This document shows positions 1-25,731 of a stretch of DNA of 42,153 bases, piece after piece. The notes under the pieces are model-generated. The model did not search any database. It worked only from the letters and a program-made list of their open reading frames with translations, and was not told the origin of the DNA. Position numbers and translations under genes: made by a program. The stretch spans positions 1 to 42,153 of the forward strand of contig DAHXLG010000005.1 of NCBI GenBank assembly GCA_027371775.1, in the 5' to 3' direction. How positions within the stretch are numbered: position 1 is the stretch's first letter; every line of letters starts with the position of its first letter. The DNA comes from a bacterium. Lineage in GTDB: Bacteria > Pseudomonadota > Alphaproteobacteria > CAJXXZ01 > DAHXLG01.

Positions 1-137
1 TCTAGGTTCAGATGATGAAAGACAAGAAAAGCAATTTCTTACGGCAGCTAACCCTGCTTCTCTAGGTTCAGATGATGAAAGACAAGAAAAGCAATTTCTT
101 ACGGCAGCTAACCCTGCTTCTCTAGGTTCAGATGATG
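1..137 (+). repeat. 60-bp direct tandem repeat, 2.3 copies
   Basis: Positions 1-60 and 61-120 are identical base for base, and 121-137 repeats the first 17 bases before the sequence diverges. Perfect identity implies recent expansion or ongoing homogenisation. The array lies in frame in the partial gene at 2-256 and reaches the window edge, so true copy number is unknown. Confidence 0.95.
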
Positions 138-256
138 CAATAGCAGTACATTGCATTCAATATGGAGTTTTTTTAATTAAAAATTTAAACTATGCTGGAG
201 TGATAATGGTGGATCCTTTACATTATTTTCTCGAAGATGTTTCTTTATTTAAATGA
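2..256 (+). CDS. C-terminal end of a tandem-repeat protein (5' end outside window)
   Basis: An open frame runs from the window edge to a TGA at 254-256. It encodes two perfect copies of a 20-residue unit beginning LGSDDERQEK and ending TAANPAS, the first five residues of a third copy (LGSDD), and a unique 39-residue tail with hydrophobic stretches (YGVFLIKN, YAGVIMVDP). The repeat is 60 bp, a multiple of three, so copy number can change without breaking the frame. The unit is charged and polar, as in repeat-bearing surface or secreted proteins of intracellular bacteria, but I recognise no family. There is no start codon in view; the array probably continues to the left. That it is coding is inferred from frame conservation over 85 codons and repeat length; function is unknown. 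Confidence 0.6.
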   Translation, partial: LGSDDERQEKQFLTAANPASLGSDDERQEKQFLTAANPASLGSDDAIAVHCIQYGVFLIKNLNYAGVIMVDPLHYFLEDVSLFK

Positions 257-579
257 TCACAGTAATTAAAGCCCTTTGGTTGTATTCTAATTAATTGGAA
301 ACCTGGTCATTATTGAGTTGTTACTCTTGTGGATTATCTTTTGCTGAGTCAGGTAATTTTCACAGTAATAGATTCTTTAGTATATTATTCATTGGAAACC
401 TAATCATTATTCAATAAGGAAAGAAATTACTTTTAATTTTCTATATTATTATTGATTACTTAGGTACTGGCTTTACTTGGGATGTTGGCACAATGCATTT
501 ATAAACACTTGATTTCGATGATGATAGCGAAAGTCCCTTTAGTAGTTTGTATTCTTGAAACCTGGTCATTATTGAGTTG
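257..579. other. spacer with echoes of the neighbouring transporter's 3' end
   Basis: No intact gene. It holds a diverged copy of the 3' end of the adjacent minus-strand permease (280-360) and a shorter, more eroded copy of the same post-stop sequence around 391-413. Nothing else recognisable. Confidence 0.7.
280..360 (-). pseudogene. duplicated 3' end of the AmpG-like transporter
   Basis: Read on the minus strand, the segment ends KLPDSAKDNPQE then stop. The intact transporter at 580-1833 ends KLPDSPKDIPQE then stop. From GAAACCTGG onward about 58 of 63 bases match 557-619, including the 14 bases after the stop codon. Nothing upstream of this tail survives, so it is either the relic of a second paralogue or a partial duplication. 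It lies directly downstream of the intact gene in the same orientation. Confidence 0.75.
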
Positions 580-6127: not shown

Positions 6128-8185
6128 TTAAAAAAGGGAAACTATATCTTCATTTTTATATTCTTGGCCTATTTTCATGTAGGCAAATGTTTTGGTTATC
6201 CATTGTTGTTGCTTATATATATATACATCTTTAGCGATTTCTGGCCCTAAAAATTGAAGATCTTCAACACTGGAAATCAAAAAATTGTTGAAATCAGGAA
6301 ACTTGTGTGCAATTGCAGTAGCTTTTGCTCTGCCTATATGAAGCATTCCAAGGCTGACTATAAATGCCTCAAGAGAGATATGTTTGCTTTTTTCAATAGC
6401 TTCAAGTAAATTGCTAAGTGCTTTTTGACCAAGCCAGCTTGGGTTGCATGTTATCATATTGATGCGATTTTTTATTTCAAAAAAATCATATGGGTATTCG
6501 ATTATGCCCATTTGCATAAAAAATTCGATTTGTTTTTCTCCCATGCTAGTAATATCTAATCCGTGTTTGCCTGCAAAATAGGCTAATCTTTGTTTGCGCT
6601 GTGCTTGGCAGTTCCAATCGTTTATACAAGTATCATCATTTAAGTAGCTTGCGCATGATGGACAAGTTGTTGGTAGCTCAAGTTCTTTATCCCCTTTTTG
6701 TATTATATCCGAAATCATTGGAATTACCTCACCTGCCATTTCAATTTTTACGATATCTCCAATTGTGTAGTTTTTTTCTTTTAATGCGTTGAAATTATTT
6801 AATGTTGCACGCTTGATTTTCCTGCCTTTGATTTTTGTTTCTTCAATTTCTGCTACTGGAGTTAGACGTCCGAAACGTCCAACTTGAAATGTAATATCTT
6901 GAATTGTTGAAATTGCGAATGTGTTTTCAAATTTTACGGCAAAAGCGTAGCGTGGAGCAGTTGCAGTTTCTCCCAATGCATTATAGAGTGAGTGATTATT
7001 TATTTTGAATACTACTCCATCTATTTCAAATGGCAGCTTATCTTTAATTGCATCGATTTCATCAAAAAATTGCTCCATATCTTTTTTTGTATGACATAGT
7101 TTGTAATATGGTAGTATATCCAAGTGCATTTTTTCAAATATTGCTCGTAGGTCCATGTATGTTGGCCAGATATCTGTTTCTGGATGCTTGAGAGCAGAGT
7201 TTGCTTGTGTTTGGTAAGAGGCATATTGCCCAGAGATTTGCCAAGCAGATTCATCTTTTACAACCTCATTGTCCTCAAGTTTCGCTTCTGATATGTTTTT
7301 TATACTAATTATCTGGTTATCATTTATACCGTTTGATGGTTCAATGTGTTTGGAATCGGTCTGCTGTTGGTCTTCTTGGTAAGTTGTTGTTATAGTTTCC
7401 GATTCTTTACCTTCTTTCGTTTGATTTGCAGTTTGATGTTTATGTGCATTCTGTATTATTTTTTCGTTTGTGTTGTTAATTTGAGTGTATAAATTATGTG
7501 GCATGAAATTTATGTATTTTAAGTTTTCATCTGGTTCTTTTTTAAGAAGCATGCCAGCGACTGCGTTTCGTGGGTTTTTTATTTTGTCTTTATGTATATA
7601 AGCTTCAAACCTTATTTCAACTAGTTGTTTGATATATATATTATTTGGTAAGTTTAAAAACTTGGCTAAATGTGTTATGTCTTCACCATAAACTCCGTCG
7701 CCTCGAGTAGCGATACGTTGTAACTGACCATTTTCGTAACGTACTACCACACTTACTCCATCAACTTTTAGTTCTGCTACTAGTGGATATGGCAGATTGT
7801 GTTGTTGGTTTGATTCACAAGTTTTTGGTTGTGAACAAGATTGTAAATCGTTTTTTGCGCGATTACTTCCATCTTCCATTTTTGCATTTTTTTCTATTTT
7901 TTCATGTGTGTGCAATTTTTTTTCAATGCGTGTTAAAAAATTATCAAATGAGCTTTTTCCAAAGTCATGAGATAGTGAAAGGATGCGATGCAAATGTTTT
8001 GCTTTTTCTCCAATTGGTCTTGTTCCTATTACATCGGAAATTTTGTACTGCAAATCAGCTTCTAAAATTGCAAGCTTTTTTTTATAAAAATCATATATAT
8101 AGTCTTCGACTAGTGGGGTGCCTGCTTCGTATTGTCTGTTGAATTCTAGAATTTGTGCTCGTAGTTTTTCAATTTCCATTTGCAT
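6128..8185 (-). CDS. ligA: NAD-dependent DNA ligase, BRCT domain missing
   Basis: LigA seals nicks using NAD+, joining Okazaki fragments and completing repair. The 685-residue protein has the N-terminal Ia region, the adenylated lysine in ELKVDG (K140), the nucleotidyltransferase motifs RGDGVYGED and FEIDGVVFKI, the OB fold, a four-cysteine zinc finger (C508, C511, C520, C526) and the helix-hairpin-helix region to the C-terminus. It stops right after the HhH region, so the usual C-terminal BRCT domain of about 80 residues is absent. Normal total length is restored by two low-complexity inserts: about 30 residues before the active-site lysine, and about 100 Gln/Thr/Asn/Glu-rich residues at roughly 237-340 inside the nucleotidyltransferase domain. 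A fragment resembling residues about 570-610 lies at 3443-3547. Start: ATG at 8185; an in-frame ATG two codons later is possible. Confidence 0.95.
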   Translation of the reverse strand: MQMEIEKLRAQILEFNRQYEAGTPLVEDYIYDFYKKKLAILEADLQYKISDVIGTRPIGEKAKHLHRILSLSHDFGKSSFDNFLTRIEKKLHTHEKIEKNAKMEDGSNRAKNDLQSCSQPKTCESNQQHNLPYPLVAELKVDGVSVVVRYENGQLQRIATRGDGVYGEDITHLAKFLNLPNNIYIKQLVEIRFEAYIHKDKIKNPRNAVAGMLLKKEPDENLKYINFMPHNLYTQINNTNEKIIQNAHKHQTANQTKEGKESETITTTYQEDQQQTDSKHIEPSNGINDNQIISIKNISEAKLEDNEVVKDESAWQISGQYASYQTQANSALKHPETDIWPTYMDLRAIFEKMHLDILPYYKLCHTKKDMEQFFDEIDAIKDKLPFEIDGVVFKINNHSLYNALGETATAPRYAFAVKFENTFAISTIQDITFQVGRFGRLTPVAEIEETKIKGRKIKRATLNNFNALKEKNYTIGDIVKIEMAGEVIPMISDIIQKGDKELELPTTCPSCASYLNDDTCINDWNCQAQRKQRLAYFAGKHGLDITSMGEKQIEFFMQMGIIEYPYDFFEIKNRINMITCNPSWLGQKALSNLLEAIEKSKHISLEAFIVSLGMLHIGRAKATAIAHKFPDFNNFLISSVEDLQFLGPEIAKDVYIYKQQQWITKTFAYMKIGQEYKNEDIVSLF

Positions 8186-8611: not shown

Positions 8612-9970
8612 TTATGACTCAAACATCGTTTCGCATATTATTTCTGATAGCGTTGGATGAGGGAAAACTGTGTTTGCAAAATCTTCTGGCAATGCCTCTA
8701 GCTGCATTCCCAGGGCAATCGAATGAATCATTTCTGTAACTTCTGGTCCAATCATATGCACACCAAGAATTTCCTCAGTTTTTGCACATATCAGAATTTT
8801 TATCATGCCAAGTGAATCTTGAATTGCATTAGCTTTGCCATTTGCCATGAAGCTTGAGCGTTGTACTTTTACATTTGAGCTATAATTGGCTCCATGTTTT
8901 TCTTTTAGTTGATCTTCTGTCATGCCAATTGATGCTATTTGTGGAGACGTATAAATACATAATGGAATTGCTCCAAGTGCTCCAACTTGCTTGCCTAAAA
9001 TTATCTTGATAGCGCGTAGTCCCTCAGCCGTAGCTTTGTGTGCTAACCATGGGCCCTTTGTGCAATCGCCAATTGCGAAAATGTTTGTAACTGTTTTTCC
9101 GCTTATGCTTACCTGATGCTTTTCGTTTGTCTTAAAATAGTTTTTTTCTAAATCTAGTTGATTGAAATCTGCTGTGTTTGGAGTTACTCCAATTGCTACG
9201 ATTACTTTGTCAAAACTTTGCTCTTGAGTTGTTTGTATTGTAATTTTGCCATCTTTTTCTTCTATTTTGCTAATGGATCTGCTAAGATTGAACTTAACTC
9301 CGTCTTTTTCCATTTGCTTTTGCATTGTTTTTGCAATTTCGCTATCTATGCCTGCAAGAATTGCTGGTGCCATTTCGAATACTGTAACATTTGTACCTAG
9401 GGCTGAGTAAAAACCTGCAAACTCTATTCCGATTGCTCCTGCTCCAATTATTGCTATGTTTTTTGGTAGTGCGCTTGGTGTCATGGCTTCTCTAATGCCC
9501 CAGATATGTTCTGATTCTGGTGCTTCTGGTAATGTACGTGCTTTTGAGCCGGTAGCAATGATTAAGTTTTTTGTTTTCAATTCTTTATTATTACATAATA
9601 ATGTTATTTCTTGCCCTCCTACCTTGCTGATTTTTGCAGTTGCGGTGATTAATTCGATTTTGTTGTTTTTGAATAAAGATGCTATGCCATTGCTTAGTTT
9701 TTGTACGGTTGCGCGAGATTGTGCTACCATCTTTTCTATTTCAATACCCTTTAATTCAACATTAATACCCCAGTTTGCAGCATCTTTGATGTGCGCAACA
9801 TGTTCGCTGGCTTTTAATAAGGATTTTGTTGGAATGCATCCCCAGTTTAAACATACTCCTCCAAGGTGCTCTTTTTCTACGATTGCTACCTTGAGACCAG
9901 CTTGTGCTGCTGCTACGGCTGCTGGATATCCTCCTGGGCCTGCTCCAATTACTACTAAATCATATATCAT
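8612..9970 (-). CDS. lpdA: dihydrolipoamide dehydrogenase (E3)
   Basis: E3 reoxidises dihydrolipoamide of the pyruvate and 2-oxoglutarate dehydrogenase complexes, passing electrons to NAD+ through FAD. The 452-residue protein starts with the FAD-binding GAGPGG at 10-15. It has the redox disulfide C40/C45 in GGVCLNWGCIPTK, the NAD-binding GAGAIGIEF near 175-185, the second FAD motif AIGDCTKGPWLAHKA, and the dimer-interface catalytic HPTLSE (H438). Length and motifs are normal for the family. The start ATG at 9968-9970 is preceded by AGGAG about seven bases upstream, a strong ribosome site. It is a lone gene; no other dehydrogenase-complex subunit is in the window. A degenerate copy of its 3' end follows it. 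Confidence 0.95.
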   Translation of the reverse strand: MIYDLVVIGAGPGGYPAAVAAAQAGLKVAIVEKEHLGGVCLNWGCIPTKSLLKASEHVAHIKDAANWGINVELKGIEIEKMVAQSRATVQKLSNGIASLFKNNKIELITATAKISKVGGQEITLLCNNKELKTKNLIIATGSKARTLPEAPESEHIWGIREAMTPSALPKNIAIIGAGAIGIEFAGFYSALGTNVTVFEMAPAILAGIDSEIAKTMQKQMEKDGVKFNLSRSISKIEEKDGKITIQTTQEQSFDKVIVAIGVTPNTADFNQLDLEKNYFKTNEKHQVSISGKTVTNIFAIGDCTKGPWLAHKATAEGLRAIKIILGKQVGALGAIPLCIYTSPQIASIGMTEDQLKEKHGANYSSNVKVQRSSFMANGKANAIQDSLGMIKILICAKTEEILGVHMIGPEVTEMIHSIALGMQLEALPEDFANTVFPHPTLSEIICETMFES

Positions 9971-12515: not shown

Positions 12516-14090
12516 ATGAAATTTGTTTGTGAATCATGTGGGGTGCAACATCTTAAGTGGATTGGACGTTGTAGTTGCGGAGAATGGAATAGTCTTGTCG
12601 AAACTTCTGATGCTAAGGGTAGCGTGCGTGCTTTTGCAGCTAATGCTCTTAATCTTGTCAGTTTGAATACTGATGAAATTGATTTTCCAAAACGTATTAG
12701 CACTAAAATAAGTGAATTTGATAGGACAATCGGCGGTGGATTAGTTCCAGGCGGCGTTATATTGCTTTCTGGCGATCCTGGTGTTGGTAAATCTACTTTG
12801 TTGCTTCAGATTGCTAGCTCGCATTTTAATATTATAGATAATGGAGTCTATACAACGCATCGAAAGGCTTTGTGTGGCACGAAGGAAGAATCGGAAGAAC
12901 CATATGGTATAAATAAAGAAAATCATATAAAAGATGCTGCGAAAATTGCAATTACTGATATTTCTAGTTCTAATATATCCAACGAGGGTTGTAAAACAAA
13001 TGGAATCTATTCTCAGGATGAAAATATCTGCCTCTCAAGCCTAACAGATGTGGCTTATAAACAAATGAATGCAAAAAATGCTATCTACATATCAGGTGAA
13101 GAATCTGTTTCGCAAATTAAGCTGCGTGCAAAACGTCTTGGAGTGACTGAAGAAAGCGGAATGAAACTTAGTGCTTCCAACAACCTAGAGGAAATTTTAG
13201 CCACATTAGAAGCTTACAAAAAAGAAACAGCCCTTGTGATTATTGATTCAATTCAAACAATTGCAAGCGATAATCTTGATGGAGCTGCCGGTAGCGTTGG
13301 GCAAATTCGCTATTGTGCGCAAAAGCTAATCGAGTTTGCTAAGCTTGAGCATATTCCTTTAATTATTGTAGGGCATGTTACAAAAGAAGGTACAATTGCA
13401 GGACCAAAGATTCTTGAACATAGTGTTGATACGGTCTTGCATTTTGAGGGTGAGCGAAATTATTCTTTTCGTATTTTGCGAGCTATTAAAAACAGGTTTG
13501 GTCCAACTGATGAAATGGGTATTTTTGAAATTCTTGAAACTGGGTTGCAGCAAGTTGAAAATCCATCAATGCTTTTTTTGAATCAGCAGCAGGTCGGCGC
13601 TACTGGGTCTATTATTTTCCCTAGCATGGAAGGTAGCAGGCTTTTGATGGTAGAAATTCAGGCACTTGTTGCTCAGTCATTTCTACAAATGCCCCGTCGT
13701 GCTGTGATTGGATGGGATAACACTCGTTTGCCAATGATTTGTGCAGTACTTGAAAAACATTGCAAAATTTCGTTTGCAAATAAAGATGTTTACCTAAATG
13801 TTATGGGCGGTTTGCGTATTAATGAACCGGCTGCGGATTTGGCTGTGTTGCTTGCTATTATCTCGTCTCATTTGAATATAGCCATTCCAAATAATTATAT
13901 CGCTTTTGGAGAAATTGGACTTTCTGGTGAAATAAGAAGTGTTCAACATACAGTAAAGCGTATAGCAGAGGCAAACAAGTTAGCTTGTAAGGGTATTGTA
14001 AGCGCTGTGATTAAAGAACAGTATGATAATATGATTCAGTGCAAAAATATCCAACAAGTGCTTGACTGGGTTAAAAGGCTCCAAAAATAA
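12516..14090 (+). CDS. radA: RadA/Sms recombination ATPase with in-frame insert
   Basis: RadA is a RecA-related, Lon-related ATPase that extends heteroduplex DNA by branch migration during recombination repair. The 524-residue protein has an N-terminal zinc finger (C5, C8, C19, C21), Walker A GDPGVGKST at 86-94, the RadA-specific KNRFG motif at 325-329 and the C-terminal Lon-like domain (residues about 350-524). Two oddities: the second cysteine pair is CSC, one residue shorter than the usual CxxC; and about 80 extra residues (roughly 105-187, rich in Asn, Ser, Lys, Ile) separate Walker A from the conserved AIYISGEES, where the two are normally close. The ATG at 12516 gives the standard start. 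A diverged copy of its 3' end lies at 14313-14380. Confidence 0.94.
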   Translation: MKFVCESCGVQHLKWIGRCSCGEWNSLVETSDAKGSVRAFAANALNLVSLNTDEIDFPKRISTKISEFDRTIGGGLVPGGVILLSGDPGVGKSTLLLQIASSHFNIIDNGVYTTHRKALCGTKEESEEPYGINKENHIKDAAKIAITDISSSNISNEGCKTNGIYSQDENICLSSLTDVAYKQMNAKNAIYISGEESVSQIKLRAKRLGVTEESGMKLSASNNLEEILATLEAYKKETALVIIDSIQTIASDNLDGAAGSVGQIRYCAQKLIEFAKLEHIPLIIVGHVTKEGTIAGPKILEHSVDTVLHFEGERNYSFRILRAIKNRFGPTDEMGIFEILETGLQQVENPSMLFLNQQQVGATGSIIFPSMEGSRLLMVEIQALVAQSFLQMPRRAVIGWDNTRLPMICAVLEKHCKISFANKDVYLNVMGGLRINEPAADLAVLLAIISSHLNIAIPNNYIAFGEIGLSGEIRSVQHTVKRIAEANKLACKGIVSAVIKEQYDNMIQCKNIQQVLDWVKRLQK

Positions 14091-17749: not shown

Positions 17750-17974
17750 TTATTTTAATTCTAGACCAGGGTACTGCTTTTCAAATTTGCGCATGTTGCC
17801 AATTGATGGGCCTGTGAAACGATCTTTTTTGCTCCATGCTGGGTGAGATTCTGGATCGATTTCTTGATGGTATTCTTTATATTTTGATCCTAGACATGAC
17901 TGTGTTTCAAATTTTGTACCGTCTGTCTTGATTACAGTTATTGTGCTATATGTTGGATGAATGTCCTTTTTCAT
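17750..17974 (-). CDS. rpmE: 50S ribosomal protein L31
   Basis: L31 sits at the central protuberance and bridges the ribosomal subunits. The 74-residue product begins KKDIHPTYSTITV, continues with the basic/aromatic segment HPAWSKKDRFTGPSIGNM and ends normally. The four-cysteine zinc site of C+ L31 is absent: only one Cys is present (C28), so this is a zinc-free form. The ATG is preceded by AGGAGAGCAAT, a strong ribosome site. It is divergent from tsaE with under 40 bp between the starts. Confidence 0.92.
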   Translation of the reverse strand: MKKDIHPTYSTITVIKTDGTKFETQSCLGSKYKEYHQEIDPESHPAWSKKDRFTGPSIGNMRKFEKQYPGLELK

Positions 17975-18011: not shown

Positions 18012-18677
18012 ATGTATAAACAAGAGGTTGCCCATATTACGCTTGAAAATATAGCTCAAATTGGCAAAAAAATACGTGAGAAATTAATTCCAGGAGTTGT
18101 TCTTTCTATTTCAGGTCCACTAGGTGCTGGAAAAACTACTTTGATTAAGCATATTTTACCAGAATGCAATGTTGCAAGTCCATCGTTTTTGCATATGTTA
18201 ACTTATGTCGTTTCTGATAACTTGCAAAAATTTGATGCTAACAGTGATTTAGAAAATGTCAGCTTGGAAAACGTTAGTGGGCCTAATAACAAGCTAGAAC
18301 TCACATCGATGATGATTGATGATGCTACTAAGTCAGAACTTGCCTCGATGAGGCTTGATCCTAAGACCAAGCTGGAACTCGCCTGCGGCTCGATGAGGCT
18401 TGATCCTAAGACCAAGCTGGAACTCGCCTGCGGCTCGATGAGGCTTGATCCTAAGACCAAGCTAGAACTCGCCTGCGGCTCGTTTGCTCATATAGATGCA
18501 TATACATTTAAGTCGCGCGAGGCGTTTTTGGCTCTTGGCGTTGAAGAGTTGCTAGAAACTCATTGCGTTATTATAGAATGGGGTCAGTTGGTAGAAGATA
18601 TAATTGATATGCTTGATTGTACAGTTATGAAAATTGAAATAGTTGTTGAAAATAATGTCAGATTTATAAGGTATTGA
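18012..18677 (+). CDS. tsaE: tRNA t6A synthesis ATPase TsaE with tandem-repeat insert
   Basis: TsaE is the ATPase partner of TsaB and TsaD in making N6-threonylcarbamoyl-adenosine at position 37 of ANN-decoding tRNAs. Walker A GPLGAGKTT is at 35-43, followed by the family pattern PSFLHMLTYV, then FAHIDAYTFKSREAFLALGVEELLE and VIIEWGQLVEDI. Between strand PSFLHMLTYV and FAHIDAY the family normally has a short loop. Here about 88 residues are inserted (roughly 69-157), including three copies of a 15-residue unit (SMRLDPKTKLELACG) and two eroded ones upstream. The insert is richer in G+C than the surroundings. The frame stays open, and core motifs on both sides are intact, so the protein is probably functional. 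Start ATG at 18012; a TTG at 18009 is the only alternative. The stop is TGA. Confidence 0.9.
   Translation: MYKQEVAHITLENIAQIGKKIREKLIPGVVLSISGPLGAGKTTLIKHILPECNVASPSFLHMLTYVVSDNLQKFDANSDLENVSLENVSGPNNKLELTSMMIDDATKSELASMRLDPKTKLELACGSMRLDPKTKLELACGSMRLDPKTKLELACGSFAHIDAYTFKSREAFLALGVEELLETHCVIIEWGQLVEDIIDMLDCTVMKIEIVVENNVRFIRY
18346..18480 (+). repeat. 45-bp tandem repeat, three copies, inside tsaE
   Basis: Units at 18346-18390, 18391-18435 and 18436-18480 are almost identical; the third has one visible substitution (CTAGAA for CTGGAA). A shorter diverged unit occupies about 18307-18345. The unit length is a multiple of three, and the minus strand is also open throughout. The repeat is distinctly GC-richer than its surroundings. 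Confidence 0.95.
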
Positions 18678-25340: not shown

Positions 25341-25613
25341 ATGATGAAAGAAACTATAGTAGCGCTTTTTTTAGCACTCATTTTATTTAAATCTATTGTT
25401 AAAACTGTATTAAGGTTTGATAAACGTCCTACAATAAAATTTTTTAAGGAAAATGGTTTTTTTAACGTGCTTTGCTCTAAAGATGTTGTGGATGATCAGG
25501 ATAAGCATGCATATGGCTGCGGATGTTCGAAAGGCCAATATGTTTATAAAATGATTATTGGGGTTTGTCTTTTTGTATTCTTTTTTAAAGTTATTTTGCT
25601 TGCTATAAAATAG
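25341..25613 (+). CDS. small membrane protein, unrecognised
   Basis: 90 residues with a hydrophobic segment at about 5-20 and a second at about 70-88, giving a hairpin with a polar loop. The loop has DKRPTIKFFKENG and a compact cysteine cluster YGCGCSKG (with a further Cys at about 49), which might bind metal or form disulfides. Two adjacent ATGs (25341, 25344); no strong ribosome site. The 3' end, including the stop region, is duplicated in tandem just downstream. No homologue recognised. Confidence 0.55.
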   Translation: MMKETIVALFLALILFKSIVKTVLRFDKRPTIKFFKENGFFNVLCSKDVVDDQDKHAYGCGCSKGQYVYKMIIGVCLFVFFFKVILLAIK

Positions 25614-25731
25614 TGCGCTCGGTTTCTTGTATTATAAAATTGCATTGTTTAAATCTTCAGCAAGTTATTTTGCTTGCTATAAAATAAAACACTCGGTTTG
25701 TTATATTATACGATGCTATTGTTTAAAGCTT
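25588..25731 (+). repeat. 74-bp tandem duplication of a gene's 3' end
   Basis: The segment 25588-25657, covering the last codons and stop of the small membrane protein plus 44 bases beyond, recurs at 25662-25731. The first 25 bases are identical, and TCGGTTT, TATTATA and ATTGTTTAAA are also shared. In the second copy the stop TAG is replaced by TAA. Confidence 0.9.

Follow-up and report, generated by a model that had tools for sequence, protein, structure and literature searches.

The nearest described kinds of element to the one reported here are the palindromic coding elements of Rickettsia and Wolbachia, which insert in frame into housekeeping genes (PMC2996958, citing Ogata et al. 2000 and 2005), and the PARCELs, palindromic elements with a 25-aa unit that reside in membrane proteins of unknown function and whose spread is thought to be horizontal (PMC2996958). 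The gene that concerns us encodes TsaE, a protein that is needed together with TsaB and TsaD for the t6A modification of tRNA and that works by docking on TsaD-TsaB (PMC11648230).

Here, we describe a tandem array of 45-bp units within the tsaE gene of an alphaproteobacterium (assembly GCA_027371775.1, contig DAHXLG010000005.1), analyzed as a stretch of 42,153 nucleotides that we refer to as the window. Like the Rickettsia and Wolbachia elements, the array is coding DNA that sits in frame in a loop of a housekeeping protein, and the alphaproteobacterial genome that carries it is reduced; unlike them, its unit is non-palindromic, tandem rather than single, and without dispersed copies. With PARCELs it shares tandem, in-frame, coding repeats in a small genome, but the unit is 15 aa long, non-palindromic, and located within an ATPase. 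It also resembles bacterial intragenic tandem repeats (minisatellite or VNTR) in its multiple-of-three unit, its near-identical fresh copies and eroded older ones, and its single locus. Overall, the array fits a plain intragenic tandem repeat, and two points set it apart from the usual VNTR-type cases: it is hosted by the conserved gene of a tRNA-modification ATPase, present as a single copy, and the unit is far richer in GC than the genome. Relative to the TsaE (YjeE) proteins of Thermotoga maritima (6N9A), Haemophilus influenzae (1HTW), and Bacillus subtilis (5NP9), fold and motifs are shared but one hairpin turn is larger by about 86 residues.

We propose, with a probability of roughly 0.7, that the array arose when a segment of a permissive TsaE loop was tandemly duplicated, locally and in frame, as a passive, essentially neutral change with little or no constraint on the encoded peptide, and that the same process operates in other genes of this genome. 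Passive loop expansion, rather than a mobile element, is most likely what the array represents.

The tsaE gene and its repeat array

The tsaE ORF (221 aa; 18012-18677, plus strand) is single-copy in its genome and was identified from the reading frame, a Pfam match, and structural matches to 6n9a, 6nak, 1htw, and 5np9. Its product scores 67.7 bits against PF02367 (TsaE; cut-off 26.6), and the match is split in two, at profile positions 5-74 and 68-119, on either side of the repeat. The score against TIGR00150 (43.1 bits) falls under the cut-off of 60.1, as expected for a protein that is both split and diverged. The N-terminal half of the core (residues 1-65; 18012-18206, plus strand), delimited by alignment and by the first Pfam segment, contains the Walker A motif GPLGAGKTT and the SPSF motif; the C-terminal half (18489-18677, plus strand), placed by the Pfam match and alignment, contains HIDAY and VIIEWG. 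Aligned with the TsaE of four relatives from the same order, the protein has intact Walker A, H-x-D-x-Y, and EW motifs and keeps all of the invariant residues G38, K41, T43, S56, P57, H160, D162, E189, and W190. A profile search of the draft genome (840 kb, 168 contigs, 84% complete) found no second TsaE.

Structure was predicted with AlphaFold2 from an alignment of five TsaE sequences. Most blocks of the core have a pLDDT of 84-91, and the top nine Foldseek matches to the model are all TsaE (E 1.6e-7 to 1.1e-5, with 6n9a the best), which points to a TsaE fold in the modelled protein. Judged from its sequence, the ORF is the genome's ordinary TsaE ATPase, its predicted ATPase and t6A roles being those of the family. 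Beside tsaE, in divergent orientation, lies an rpmE-like gene (bL31, judged by its sequence; 17750-17974, minus strand). The same arrangement occurs in a relative from the same order, G007 (L082: bL31 at 8946-8746, minus strand, and tsaE at 9138-9398, plus strand), which supports orthology of the two tsaE genes.

The repeat interrupts the hairpin that joins SPSF...TY to HIDAY, lying between its strands 62-66 and 157-162 in the model. The expanded turn, from Y65 to H160, spans 94 residues (18207-18488, plus strand; placed by alignment and by pLDDT below 50 over residues 70-155), compared with 8 in the relatives G001 and G004, a net gain of about 86 aa. Within it, Tandem Repeats Finder (TRF) reports a period of 45, 3.1 copies, 98% match, and a score of 271 at 18344-18482. 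All units are on the plus strand: U1 (SMRLDPKTKLELACG, 45 bp) occupies 18345-18389; U2 (18390-18434) repeats it exactly; and U3 (18435-18479) differs by one synonymous change, CTG to CTA. Upstream are U0 (SMMIDDATKSELA, 18306-18344), an eroded 39-bp unit that is 70-73% identical to the full units, and the faint, eroded U-1 (NVSGPNNKLELT, 18270-18305), in which a 21-bp core at 18282-18302 is 86-90% identical. The units are thus head-to-tail and near-identical, with a 45-bp period that is divisible by three, and the reading frame stays open across the whole array with zero stop codons. The oldest units, upstream, have decayed, and the newest hardly differ from one another.

These results confirm what the preliminary description observed and support its interpretation in part. 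It had identified the gene as tsaE, placed three 45-bp units plus eroded ones after the Walker A half and ahead of the remaining protein, and stated that frame and motifs survive; the structural model that it called for returned a confident TsaE core with a low-confidence excursion for the insert; and a second intact tsaE, which it named as evidence that would count against it, was not found in the 84% complete genome. Its remark that the unit's GC content departs from that of its surroundings is likewise confirmed, and that content does look foreign: GC is 0.58 in the unit, 0.34 in the remainder of the ORF, and 0.32 in the window. Only 19 of 5,856 15-codon windows in the window's genes match the unit's GC richness, its GC3 is 0.73 versus 0.27 in those genes, and it makes use of rare codons.

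A hairpin of variable length in a genome with several in-frame arrays

Relatives show that the length of this hairpin varies. Within the order, an alphaproteobacterial group with genomes of 0.4-0.8 Mb, the extra residues number 0 in G001 and G004, about 33 in G007, and about 86 in the window. The G007 insert sits at the same hairpin with a different sequence, which suggests that the site tolerates insertions; it contains no repeats comparable to those of the window, and its similarity to the window insert is marginal (shuffle p = 0.03). Across the class, TsaE was matched in 280 of 289 genomes. The roughly 155 matches listed have net inserts of at most about 8 aa, as read off the listed spans, in keeping with the earlier remark that such an expansion is unusual for TsaE; the listed proteins are the best-scoring ones, so those that bear inserts may be under-represented.

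Tandem arrays (period of at least 24, score of at least 80) were counted in 329 kb of the genome, sampled as stretches. There are 20 here, versus 1 in G007 and 11 in G004 (320 kb each), and three shuffled versions of the 329-kb sample gave 0, 1, and 0. Every array within a long ORF (at least 150 aa) has a period divisible by three. Among the in-frame examples, trigger factor has a period of 30 bp, HemW one of 51 bp, transketolase one of 87 bp, and an outer-membrane-like protein one of 147 bp; there are others. Apart from tsaE, the genes were named by reading their sequences, with profile tests covering only part of them. The TsaE array is therefore one of several in this genome. GC richness does not characterize the set: the idea that its arrays are generally GC-rich was tested and rejected, with the median array at the 51st percentile, and only 4 of the 20 (TsaE, L053, L064, and one on L067) rank within the highest 1% of GC once length is taken into account.

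Taken together, we envisage the following sequence of events. The tip of one surface beta-hairpin of TsaE would have become an insertion-tolerant site, and a 45-bp segment there may have been duplicated head-to-tail, through slippage during replication or through unequal recombination. Changes in length other than multiples of three would have been lost, since the downstream half of TsaE has to remain in frame. The resulting peptide, under little or no constraint, would act as a flexible, passive loop, and the same duplication process is probably active in other genes of the genome. U0 and U1 bear on the question of constraint: 12 of 39 bases differ, spread 4/4/4 over codon positions 1, 2, and 3, and the codon changes comprise five non-synonymous and two synonymous ones, so purifying selection on the repeat is not visible in this small sample. 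The even spread, although drawn from one decayed unit, would argue against selection on the peptide. Against the proposal, slippage alone leaves a GC of 0.58 and rare codons in a genome of 0.32 GC unaccounted for, and the marginal similarity of the G007 insert to that of the window also counts against it.

The case shows that an ATPase of tRNA modification, normally compact and encoded by one gene copy, can bear an 86-residue loop of fresh repeats with no damage to be seen in its motifs, and that this reduced genome enlarges several conserved proteins by the same in-frame route. This makes the lineage useful for studying the gain of protein segments in shrinking genomes, as well as for tracing the origin of GC-rich repeat seeds.

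Alternative origins of the array

The strong contrast in GC and codon usage with the host genome speaks for a foreign or selfish coding element that, like the palindromic elements of Rickettsia, entered tsaE and then multiplied in tandem; its position, in frame inside a housekeeping gene and in an alphaproteobacterial genome that is reduced, also agrees with such an origin. Nevertheless, we consider it unlikely. The preliminary description had suggested a palindrome-like, foreign or selfish unit, but an inverted-repeat search of the gene found no dyad symmetry in the unit, and the sole inverted repeat in tsaE is a weak, 72% pair with both arms outside the array. The RNA fold of the array is no better than that of shuffled sequence (z-score 0.20), and the array has no Rfam match; on these grounds we rejected both a palindrome and an RNA structure for the array. 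Dispersal fares no better. Of the two traits of Rickettsia-type elements besides the reading frame, which the unit does respect, neither a palindromic unit nor dispersed copies were found in this 84% complete genome. A DNA search (27-mer, up to 3 mismatches) revealed no second locus in the draft, and in a protein search at E up to 10 the remaining matches all lay within the tsaE locus, so this search for the peptide in other genes, which the preliminary description had suggested, found none. The unit was also absent from the sampled genomes of the order, from 385 class and 398 phylum genomes, from the plasmids searched, and from viral contigs in two DNA-pattern scans; phages yielded no copy, with one weak, insignificant match (40%, E 0.7). 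Within what could be searched, the unit is unique to the tsaE locus. With no palindrome and no occurrence elsewhere in the genome or the sampled sets, a mobile or selfish element is unsupported, and the unit was set aside as a dispersed element. The preliminary description had also allowed that a unit confined to this locus and invariant in size would speak against it; the first half of that pair was found, the unit occurring only here.

An alternative that we likewise regard as improbable is that the repeat serves TsaE as a functional arm whose length or sequence is under selection, for example to tune docking on TsaB-TsaD or to bind a host- or lineage-specific partner. Since docking on TsaD-TsaB is how TsaE acts (PMC11648230), a large excursion could influence that contact; the hairpin is also enlarged in G007, and a few helices are predicted within the insert at low confidence. 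However, the insert's pLDDT is below 50, synonymous changes are not in excess between units, the unit sequence is absent from every other sampled genome, and the TsaE proteins of G001 and G004 manage without an insert. It appears very unlikely that an essential tRNA-modification ATPase took up a GC-rich 45-bp coding unit from outside and amplified it into a new functional arm, within a lineage that enlarges conserved proteins by in-frame repeats. Finally, although the source is a draft metagenome-assembled genome in 168 contigs and 84% complete, decay of tsaE or an assembly artefact is highly improbable, as the array is short (139 bp), U3 is marked by its own base, older diverged units are present, and frame and motifs are intact on both sides with zero stop codons.

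Additional repeats and parS-like sites

Several other repeats and inserts were observed. The contig begins inside a perfect, in-frame 60-bp repeat (window 1-257; 2.3 copies of LGSDDERQEKQFLTAANPAS) near the C-terminus of a protein, and this repeat may have broken the assembly. LigA (window 6128-8185, minus strand) has a long hydrophilic insert of roughly 110 aa, and RadA (window 12516-14090, plus strand) has one of 65-80 aa that is missing in G004. An intergenic 74-bp tandem duplication, 84% identical, lies at 25588-25731 of the window. Beyond the window, a transketolase-like ORF (L059, 7318-7497) contains an in-frame 87-bp duplication (TFI.E.DLI.HPDEIN) inside a long insert, and the outer-membrane-like protein at L064 (6349-6645) contains an in-frame 147-bp duplication that is GC-rich (0.48). 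The GC-rich array at L053 (16068-16308; GC 0.51) comprises 5.3 copies of a 45-bp unit unrelated to that of TsaE and may adjoin a tRNA-like region.

At L067 (G000:C84), 51-bp repeats occur in frame within hemW (NVPRETLRNEKYCGEYA, 1715-1861) and again in the trxB-hemW spacer (1077-1175). Most of these units contain AGTTTCACGTGGAACA, which agrees at 15 of 16 bases with the bacterial parS consensus and is parS-like. Across the whole draft genome, GTTTCACGTGGAAC with up to one mismatch occurs at four sites only, all in the 51-bp unit; hemW itself contains three of them, and the adjoining spacer array has the fourth. A ParB-family protein is encoded in the same genome, on C11. The pattern suggests that a predicted centromere site may have multiplied inside the coding gene hemW. 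In G007 (L078), two perfect TGTTCCACGTGGAACA palindromes at 18182 and 18705, about 520 bp apart and beside a TsaB-like gene, are candidate parS sites.
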